The notes under the pieces: generated by a model | Told to the model about the DNA's origin: nothing | Seen by the model: only the letters and a program-made list of their open reading frames with translations | Database searches by the model: none | Translations under genes and position numbers: made by a program | Assembly: GCF_014930455.1 (NCBI RefSeq) | Contig: NZ_JAAIYO010000001.1 | Location: 1,116,001-1,180,000 of the forward strand | Reading direction: 5' to 3' | Length of the DNA stretch: 64,000 bases | Origin: Corallococcus soli | GTDB taxonomy: Bacteria; Myxococcota; Myxococcia; Myxococcales; Myxococcaceae | In this document: positions 15,447 to 17,778 of the stretch, piece by piece | How the letters are laid out: each line of letters starts with the position of its first letter | Position numbering within the stretch: position 1 is the first letter of the stretch

Positions 15447-15680
15447 TCACTGCGCGTCCCAACCGCCCGGCCGGGCGACCGCGAACTGCTGGGCGGACGG
15501 CTGCCCCACCCGGAAGCGGCGCAGGTCGCAACCTCGGCAACTCCAGCCTTCCCAGCCTTTCTTCACGACCTGGTGGAGGCAGGCGTCGTAGTTGGGGCAG
15601 AAGAGGTTGCGCTGGTCGTCCACGGTCTCCTCGTCACGGAGGGCGGAAGGCAGGGGGATGGGACACGGCGTGATGGACAC
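15447..15680 (-). CDS. Small CxxxxxC/CxxC zinc-ribbon-like protein
   Basis: A 77-residue protein of unknown function. The core FCPNYDACLHQVVKKGWEGW followed by SCRGCDLRRF has four cysteines in CxxxxC and CxxC pairs, a likely zinc knuckle. I chose the GTG at 15680 because GGAGAG lies 6 bp upstream; an in-frame TTG at 15782 falls in the upstream terminator and is unlikely. It is transcribed on the minus strand between the micro-gene and pyrG, 86 bp before the pyrG start. Confidence 0.6.
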   Translation of the reverse strand: MSITPCPIPLPSALRDEETVDDQRNLFCPNYDACLHQVVKKGWEGWSCRGCDLRRFRVGQPSAQQFAVARPGGWDAQ

Positions 15681-15780: not shown

Positions 15781-15815
15781 AAAAAAAGTCGCCCCCGTCG
15801 GGAGACGAGGGCGAC
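15781..15815 (-). terminator. Strong intrinsic terminator of the micro-gene
   Basis: On the minus strand a 12-bp stem with one mismatch (GTCGCCCTCGTC pairing with GACGGGGGCGAC, loop TCCC) is followed at once by seven T residues. This is the best intrinsic terminator in the window. It ends the short transcript carrying the 16-codon frame. Confidence 0.88.
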
Positions 15816-15856
15816 CGGTACCGCGGGACGTCAACCACCGCCGGGGAACCCCTGGG

Positions 15857-15907
15857 CTAGCAGGCCACCGCGACGGAGGTAGACGCCTGACTCTTGCTGT
15901 CGTTCAA
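15857..15907 (-). CDS. Putative 16-codon micro-gene with extended Shine-Dalgarno
   Basis: The frame TTG...TAG encodes MNDSKSQASTSVAVAC if TTG initiates. It is preceded by AGAAAGGAGGTGAT (15911-15924 region), complementary over 14 nt to the 3' end of bacterial 16S rRNA, with 7 nt between GGAGG and TTG. TTG is also the likely start of katE in this window. Stop and terminator follow within 80 bp. The peptide is polar and Ser-rich, with a hydrophobic end and a terminal Cys. It resembles no family I know and could be a secreted signal, a RiPP-like precursor or a regulatory leader. It lies 98 bp downstream of the ABC exporter gene on the same strand. Confidence 0.5.
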   Translation of the reverse strand: MNDSKSQASTSVAVAC

Positions 15908-15937
15908 GGCATCACCTCCTTTCTTGAGGCGCTAGAG

Positions 15938-15943
15938 ATAATG
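15938..15943 (-). promoter_or_regulatory. -10-like hexamer for the micro-gene
   Basis: The minus strand reads CATTAT (4 of 6 matches to TATAAT) about 30 bp before the TTG start. No good -35 is seen 16-18 bp upstream. If used, the transcript would be about 150 nt to the terminator. Confidence 0.25.
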
Positions 15944-16005
15944 CGCCCCCGCTTTTCGCGCCACGCGGACTGCGTGAAGGAAGGCGCCGGCTGGGGAACG
16001 ACCGT

Positions 16006-17778
16006 TCAGGCGGCGACCACCTGGTGCTCCACCAGGCGCCGGTAGAGGCCCTCCTGCGACATGAGGGAGGCGTGCGTGCCGCTCTGCACCACGCGGCCGG
16101 CCTCCAGCACCAGCACGCGGTGGGCGTTGGCCACGGTGGACAGGCGGTGGGCGATGATGAGGGTGGTGCGCCCCTGCATCAGCTTCTCCAGGGCGTCCTT
16201 CACCAGGTGTTCGCTCTCCGAGTCCAGGGCGGACGTCGCCTCATCCAGCACGAGGATGCGCGGGTCCTTGAGCACGGCCCGGGCGATGGCGACGCGCTGC
16301 TTCTGGCCGCCGGACAGCTGCACGCCGCGCTCGCCCACCGCGGTCTGGTAGCCCTCCGGGAAGCGGCTGATGAAGTCGTGCGCGTGCGCGGCCTTCGCGG
16401 CGGCCTCCACCTGGGCGTCGGTGGCGTCCGGGCGGCCGTAGCGGATGTTGTCCCCGATGGAGCAGGAGAACAGCAGGGGCTCCTGGGCGACCATGCCCAC
16501 GTGCCGGCGCAGCCAGCTGGGGTCGAGCGTGTCCAGGGCGCGTCCGTCCAGGAGCAGGCGGCCCTGCTGCGGGTCGTAGAAGCGCGACAGGAGGGCGGCG
16601 AGGGTGGACTTGCCGGCGCCGGAGGAGCCCACCACGGCGACGACCTCCCCCGCGTGGAGGGTGAGGTCGATGCCCTGGAGCACCTGCACGTCCGGGCGCG
16701 AGGGGTAGGAGAACCTCACGTCCTGGAAGTCCACCCGGCCCTCGACGGTGGCGGGGCGCTCGCCCTGGGCGATGGGGATGACGGGCGTGCGGTCCATGAG
16801 CTCGAAGACGCGCTCGGCGGCGCCCGAGGCCCGCATGAAGTCCGCCCACAGGTCCGCCAGGGCGCCCAGGGACATGGCCACGAGCATCGTGTAGATGAGG
16901 AACGAGGTGAGGGCGCCCACGGTGAGCTGCTGCTCCACCACCAGCCGGCCGCCGTACCAGAACACCGCCACTGCGGCGATGTAGCCCGCGCTGGTGACCC
17001 CGCCGATGAAGATGGACGTCTGGAGCGAGCGGCGCCGGGCGACCACGAAGGCGTGGTGCACCGTGTCGCCGTAGCGCGTCACCTCCGCCGGCTCCGCCGC
17101 GAAGGAGCGCACGGTGCGCAGGCTGGACAGGCTCTCCTCGGCGACCTCACCGGCCTTGGCCAGCGCGTCCTGCACCTCGCGTGACATCAGGCGCACGCGG
17201 CGCCCGTAGAACACGCTGCCCACCGCCACGAGGGGGACGACGGCGAGCATCAGGAACGTGAGCGAGGCCGACGTGTAGAAGAGCAGCGCGATGCCGCCCA
17301 TGGCCTGCACGGCGTTGCGCAGCACCATGGAGATGTTCGTGCTCACGGTGTTCTGGAGGACGGTGGTGTCGGACGAGAGCCGGCTGGTGAGCTCCCCGGT
17401 GCGGTGGTTGTCGAAGAAGGCCACCTCCTGGCTCATGAGGCTGCTGAAGAAGTCGCGGCGCAGCCGCATCACCACGCGCTCGCCGGAGACGTTGAAGAGG
17501 TAGGCGCGCAGCGCGATGGCGACGCCCTGCACCAGGAAGACGGCCAGCATGACGAGCGCGGCCTTGTCGATGAGCGAGTGGTCCTTGCCGTTGAGGGCCT
17601 CGTCGATGAGGACGCGGATGCCCTGGGGGTAGGCCAGGCTGGCGGCGCTGCCGAGCAACAGGAAGACGGTGGCCAGGGCCAGCGTCGGCAGTTCGGGGCG
17701 CGCCAGGGACAGCAGGCGGCGCGCGGTCACGCCCGAGGCGGGCCGTTTGGAGGGCGGAGGGGGTTCAGGAGGAGGCAC
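16006..17778 (-). CDS. ABC exporter, MsbA/BmrA-like half-transporter
   Basis: A 590-residue inner-membrane exporter that works as a dimer. An N-terminal Pro-rich tail is followed by a six-helix ABC transmembrane domain (about 25-325). The nucleotide-binding domain has Walker A GSSGAGKST, signature LSGGQKQR, Walker B ILVLDEATSALD and H-loop IIAHRLS. The surrounding kds genes make a lipid A/LPS flippase role attractive, but the substrate cannot be read from sequence. No C39 peptidase domain is present. It is divergent from the aldo/keto reductase. Confidence 0.93.
   Translation of the reverse strand: MPPPEPPPPSKRPASGVTARRLLSLARPELPTLALATVFLLLGSAASLAYPQGIRVLIDEALNGKDHSLIDKAALVMLAVFLVQGVAIALRAYLFNVSGERVVMRLRRDFFSSLMSQEVAFFDNHRTGELTSRLSSDTTVLQNTVSTNISMVLRNAVQAMGGIALLFYTSASLTFLMLAVVPLVAVGSVFYGRRVRLMSREVQDALAKAGEVAEESLSSLRTVRSFAAEPAEVTRYGDTVHHAFVVARRRSLQTSIFIGGVTSAGYIAAVAVFWYGGRLVVEQQLTVGALTSFLIYTMLVAMSLGALADLWADFMRASGAAERVFELMDRTPVIPIAQGERPATVEGRVDFQDVRFSYPSRPDVQVLQGIDLTLHAGEVVAVVGSSGAGKSTLAALLSRFYDPQQGRLLLDGRALDTLDPSWLRRHVGMVAQEPLLFSCSIGDNIRYGRPDATDAQVEAAAKAAHAHDFISRFPEGYQTAVGERGVQLSGGQKQRVAIARAVLKDPRILVLDEATSALDSESEHLVKDALEKLMQGRTTLIIAHRLSTVANAHRVLVLEAGRVVQSGTHASLMSQEGLYRRLVEHQVVAA

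Follow-up and report, generated by a model that had tools for sequence, protein, structure and literature searches.

On the minus strand of the window (the whole stretch of Corallococcus soli DNA that was analyzed, 64,000 nucleotides long), a compact element lies between a gene for an ABC exporter (ABC_membrane + ABC_tran; 16006-17778) and a 77-amino-acid Cys-containing ORF (15447-15680), both on the same strand and both outside the unit. The element carries an extended Shine-Dalgarno (SD) sequence, AGAAAGGAGGTGAT (15924-15911), which is a 14-nt complement of the 3' tail of 16S rRNA, followed by a micro-ORF, MNDSKSQASTSVAVAC (15907-15857), of 16 codons with a TTG start (15907-15905) and a TAG stop (15859-15857). 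It is closed by an intrinsic terminator (15781-15816), whose stem (15816-15787) has 13 pairs, nine of them G-C, and a loop of four, followed by seven T. A first-pass annotation of this DNA had proposed this SD, TTG frame, stop and terminator, and all were found exactly where it had placed them. Three further segments are predicted to govern folding: the 5' arm of an SD hairpin, GGAGGTGATGCCTTG (15905-15919), which covers the SD core and the start codon; an anti-SD arm inside the ORF, AGGCGTCTACCTCC (15875-15888); and an alternative (anti-anti-SD) arm, CGGCGGTGGTTGACGTC (15827-15843), which would pair with the anti-SD arm and release the SD. The RNA of the window folds better than its shuffles (z -3.6). 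The whole gene would comprise about 150 letters and encode a peptide of 13-19 amino acids across members.

Upstream of the SD we identified a promoter-like pair (15935-15963), TGGCGC (15963-15958) and TATCTC (15940-15935) separated by a 17-nt spacer, with a predicted transcription start site (TSS) at about 15930-15926. TGGCGC-N17-TA recurs across clade-1 sequences, the clade to which the window belongs, and is near invariant in their alignment, while distant members show, by eye, TTGC-type -35-like sequences at similar spacing. We infer the promoter from this conservation only. A sigma-70 consensus scan returned no promoter at the element, and a sigma-54 promoter (TGGC-CG element) was ruled out, there being no -12 GC. 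Literature searches on myxobacteria turned up neither RNA-seq, Ribo-seq nor peptide data, nor any usable TSS map. Right after the terminator, a GGGAAT-N17-GTT motif (15765-15740, minus strand), conserved in clade-1 loci, looks like a promoter of the ECF/SigR type, from which the small Cys-containing ORF (15680-15447) would be transcribed. This ORF (MSITPCPIPLPSALRDEE...CPNYDACLHQVV..GWSCRGCDLRRF) is conserved and Zn-ribbon-like, lies between the micro-gene and the CTP synthase gene and has no Pfam match.

The family was assembled by a DNA search, then with a covariance model built on the 55-nt core (R1) and two rebuilt models (R2 and R3). The DNA search located the element in Corallococcus, Myxococcus, Archangium, Hyalangium and other genera, and R1 recovered distant members. 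Strong matches occur in 83 (R2) and 85 (R3) Myxococcaceae genomes out of about 96, with essentially one copy per genome; the element was not detected in about 12 genomes of this family, several of which are incomplete or small. Weaker copies with ATG starts (L116, L139, L140 and L141) occur in a sister family. A terminator comparable to that of the window is present in nearly all members. Matches of the covariance model in other families of the phylum (L142-L145) have no hairpin-coupled ORF and were rejected as false positives.

16S complementarity and reading frame

The 16S rRNA of four complete relatives ends in GGATCACCTCCTTTCTA(A/C)GG, so the 14-nt match of AGAAAGGAGGTGAT is exact for Myxococcaceae, as the first-pass annotation had claimed for the 16S tail. 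In the species' own 9.4-Mb assembly, which holds no 16S, the 12-mer AAAGGAGGTGAT occurs once, at the element; across 59 genomes of the family, the 13-mer GAAAGGAGGTGRT is found mainly at the element and antisense to 16S. The sites inspected elsewhere are without such an ORF and mostly within coding sequence. The exceptions are L119, which was found through the 13-mer survey and turned out to be a missed member, and L117 (minus strand, about 977), which has an extended SD, an ATG and an 18-codon frame with a weaker hairpin and no obvious terminator, and is possibly a diverged or decaying member. A lone 13-mer per genome is not improbable in itself, and its significance rests on conservation. 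Among 73 unique members, the sole variants at positions 2-13 are A-to-G, which turn A-U into G.U pairs with 16S, and pairing at position 1 is broken twice; members were partly gathered with patterns favoring the 13-mer, and its invariance is somewhat overstated. The first four SD bases, GAAA, lie outside the hairpin and stay conserved, which suggests that selection acts on the 16S pairing as such.

Each of the 48 first-round loci and every distant true member has an open frame of 13-19 codons, and these span 18 or more genera. Frameshifts and stops in close relatives, which would have spoken against a gene, were sought and none was found. The start codon stands at a constant offset from the SD (+16) and is always TTG, GTG or ATG (TTG in most members, GTG in L099 and L119, ATG in the sister family), while the stop may be TAG, TAA or TGA, its identity turning over in place. 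Core lengths of 52, 55, 58, 61 and 64 nt are all steps of three, loop indels come in threes, and the in-ORF anti-SD occurs at four different distances in one phase throughout. With at least 12 contiguous pairs to the 16S 3' tail upstream of the start and a short ORF preserved as a frame, the element can be called an extended-SD micro-mRNA, a functional description and not an established family.

These features bear on a reading in which the RNA is non-coding, its 5' arm only pairing with the 16S 3' tail as a 30S decoy or 16S guide, and the ORF is incidental. Such an RNA would explain why the 13-nt complementarity is kept beyond the needs of the hairpin, and it agrees with codons that show no third-position bias and with the finding of no other conserved seed region. 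It does not predict a valid start at a constant offset, an anti-SD kept in phase, loop indels in threes and stops swapped in place. On Ms_IGR-5, an RNA alike in architecture, ribosome footprints have moreover been recorded in both M. abscessus and M. smegmatis (PMC4974804). We consider an incidental ORF unlikely.

The frame is kept and the peptide sequence is not. Substitutions by codon position 1/2/3 number 12/24/19 and 13/13/16 (loop and tail); the codons lack third-base bias, so the peptide is under weak constraint only, and this speaks against a RiPP or a secreted peptide. The peptides are hydrophilic, are conserved only where RNA pairing fixes the codons and are unrelated between clades (QASTS, QGTIS, GVASL, AFAA), with an M[NTI][DE]S start recurring in clade 1. 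That recurrent start, together with the breadth of genera in which the frame is open, could be taken to indicate a functional peptide (a signal, membrane or enzyme-binding micropeptide, or a RiPP precursor) whose dose alone is set by the folds. The lack of relation between clades, the substitution counts and the scarcity of exporter or modification genes, absent from most contexts, make this quite improbable. The RiPP-like or secreted product suggested by the first-pass annotation is likewise not supported: the peptide varies freely outside the RNA-pairing codons, has no leader/core split, does not occur as a conserved leader/core peptide beside modification genes, and does not have the ABC exporter next to it in other clades. 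Of the options given there, a translated small RNA fits best, and the proposed micro-gene with its own terminator proves to be real, conserved and, as far as the alignments indicate, under selection for very strong 16S pairing.

Two predicted folds

We predict a bistable RNA, with the SD and start codon paired to the in-ORF anti-SD, or the anti-SD paired to the downstream block. The arm AGGCGTCTACCTCC would form the 3' side of the SD hairpin in one fold and the 5' side of the alternative hairpin in the other, and it takes part in compensatory changes in both helices. For the SD hairpin, 93.5% of cells pair across 31 diverse members and three pairs show two-sided changes, in seven cells (0/500 shuffles), in an alignment that was fitted to the model and so leans towards the structure; the first close set alone contained no two-sided change. 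If the energy model is made to keep the SD unpaired, the anti-SD arm pairs with the conserved downstream block in nearly all members. Alignments made per clade with MAFFT, with the structure named by the analyst, give two-sided changes in the alternative hairpin in 20 cells for clade 1 and 10 cells for clade 2 (0/500 shuffles in each), the latter including an apical stem that holds the stop codon; slid controls are far lower.

The costs of the two folds are likewise predictions. Over 72 members, the energy model gives an SD opening cost of about 26 kcal/mol if the anti-SD is barred from other pairing, which is an upper bound, and about 7 kcal/mol with the alternative hairpin; the SD:16S duplex is put at about -22 kcal/mol for 13 nt and -9 kcal/mol for 6 nt. 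In 26 members the opening cost averages 7.7 as observed vs 14.4 with the downstream part alone shuffled, and for most of them the value is no higher than the lowest 4% of their own shuffles. The alternative hairpin is no better than shuffles in L094, L095, L113, L141 and, partly, L139, and the sequence of the window itself has an opening cost below that of its shuffles but no lower G(open).

The first-pass annotation had regarded the element as selected for very strong translation. The strong 16S pairing holds, but a reading as very strong translation is too simple, as the SD and start would be locked by the ORF itself in a hairpin of 14-15 bp, and freeing them needs the alternative hairpin. 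A hairpin this strong may, as a counterpoint, simply shut translation off. Energetics alone leave the 13-nt match unexplained, because an ordinary SD would suffice with the alternative hairpin formed.

Gene neighborhoods and proposed mechanism

The element occurs in at least six gene neighborhoods. The order in clade 1 is ABC exporter, element, Cys-containing small ORF and CTP synthase, and in clade 2 it is SpoIID-like gene, element and YheT-like hydrolase. In a third clade the element is near a thioesterase-like gene, ahead of an opposite-strand MATE gene, and among the other contexts are ones with a small heat-shock-like protein and with a peptide transporter (names taken from translations); several contexts have no sense gene downstream. 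The exporter reported directly upstream is a true neighbor in the window and is not found there beyond clade 1. Because the neighborhoods vary, we view the element as a transcription unit in its own right instead of a leader, one that most likely carries its own promoter besides the terminator.

Leader-peptide switches with mutually exclusive hairpins are known from the ermC and trp attenuators, with which the element shares a short ORF, alternative helices and a terminator; it differs from them in that no regulated downstream gene is consistently attached. An attenuator or leader peptide acting through the terminator on the next gene would suit clade 2, where the ATG of the YheT-like hydrolase is close behind the T-run, and clade 1, where the next ORF is conserved. 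Different clades, however, have different downstream genes, several have a convergent gene or none there, the next gene in clade 1 has its own conserved promoter-like motif, and the terminator stem overlaps neither switch helix, which together render this explanation very improbable. For the Zn-ribbon-like ORF, pyrG or YheT as the regulated gene, it was rejected on account of the changing neighborhoods. A type I toxin-like mRNA, silenced by metastable SD-sequestering folds and accompanied by an antisense antitoxin, is hardly credible. In its favor, the hiding of the SD in metastable folds is reported to be a hallmark of such mRNAs (eLife 2019, PMC6733600); against it, the peptides are short, hydrophilic and not membrane-spanning, no conserved antisense promoter was noticed by eye, and each genome has a single chromosomal copy.

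We favor, with moderate confidence, an autonomous micro-mRNA or dual-function small RNA that combines conserved 30S capture with a ribosome-dependent switch. RNA polymerase would produce a transcript of about 150 nt ending at the terminator, its 5' end bearing the extended SD able to pair 13-14 nt with the 16S 3' tail. During synthesis, the in-ORF anti-SD would fold back and cover the start codon together with the SD (OFF fold). Should a 30S subunit capture the SD, or the downstream block win the anti-SD, the second hairpin would form and the start site would open (ON fold), allowing the 13-19-codon ORF to be translated. Conservation extends to 16S complementarity, helices, start, stop and phase but not to the peptide, so selection most likely acts on ribosome engagement itself, through a 30S-responsive, possibly 30S-titrating switch. 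This proposal builds on the conservation, autonomy, open frame and covariation seen in the compared sequences; ribosome binding would be the trigger and, we infer, ribosome availability the signal.

Similar architectures in other phyla

No Rfam 15 family matched over the window. Two Rfam families share the architecture of the element. CC2171 (RF01867), from Alphaproteobacteria, is likewise a stand-alone sRNA with a 5' GAAAGGAGGUGAUC(C/U), a terminator and a long hairpin; unlike the element, it is predicted to fold with its SD essentially unpaired (opening cost 2-4 kcal/mol), and it has a longer ORF and a much larger hairpin. Ms_IGR-5 (RF02471), from Actinomycetota, has a 5' AGGAAGGAGGUGGU, a short ORF, an SD-proximal helix, a second hairpin and a strong terminator, and its sequence is otherwise unrelated. 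The window gave no match at the gathering cut-off of either model (75 and 45 bits, respectively). The best CC2171 match in the window's own genome scores 17.8 bits and lies elsewhere than the element, and the divergent member L119 reaches 21.1 bits over the full length; Ms_IGR-5 yields 0 matches over cut-off in 145 genomes of the class, its full-length match to the outlier L116 scoring 32 bits. L139-L141 match neither model. Homology to either family was considered and is not established, as shared 16S complementarity and terminators inflate the scores.

All five plasmid-borne CC2171 members analyzed (L133-L137, about 1500-1680) have a GTG start at +16 and an ORF of 24-26 codons (MSHC...) that is unannotated in the records. 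Although Rfam files CC2171 as non-coding, this ORF is conserved and follows a near-perfect complement of 16S. A genome-wide study in Caulobacter states that its ncRNA regions were not translated (PMC4117421), which speaks against translation of CC2171 unless it was reclassified. In Nocardia farcinica (L138, 1411-1470), Ms_IGR-5 has an ATG-started ORF of 12 codons, MDSSRTREVAVR*, behind an extended SD, and its Rfam consensus can be read likewise, with a UUG start. Ms_IGR-5 is transcribed in Streptomyces (PMC8079986, PMC8780764).

In Flavobacterium, the extended SD of rpsU is reported to sense ribosomes that lack bS21 (PMC9976891). On that account both systems would use an extended SD to make one mRNA report the state of the 16S 3' tail, but rpsU is a ribosomal-protein gene, whereas in the element the micro-ORF stands alone and would supply its own anti-SD switch. 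The text of the Breaker-lab 50-genome survey gave no match to myxobacteria.

Tentatively, and as a possibility that we hold to be less than even, stand-alone RNAs in several phyla (Myxococcota, Alphaproteobacteria and Actinomycetota) may have been selected for 30S capture through a near-complete anti-SD match that flips their fold, acting as a sensor of ribosome availability or as a ribosome sink, with a largely irrelevant peptide. If so, Rfam lists two such RNAs as non-coding sRNAs whose function is unknown, and some annotated non-coding sRNAs (CC2171, Ms_IGR-5) would be micro-mRNAs. The element would be a natural example of the strongest possible SD serving as the input of a switch instead of setting the volume of translation, and would help to study how cells could measure free 30S subunits.

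Two further observations concern the CC2171 plasmids. On a Methylobacterium radiotolerans plasmid, a 16S rRNA gene starts about 0.9 kb downstream of the CC2171 copy (L134, 2557-3037). On the Azospirillum lipoferum plasmid AZO_p3, a strong inverted repeat lies just past the CC2171 terminator (L135, 1680-1841) and attracts spurious miRNA matches.
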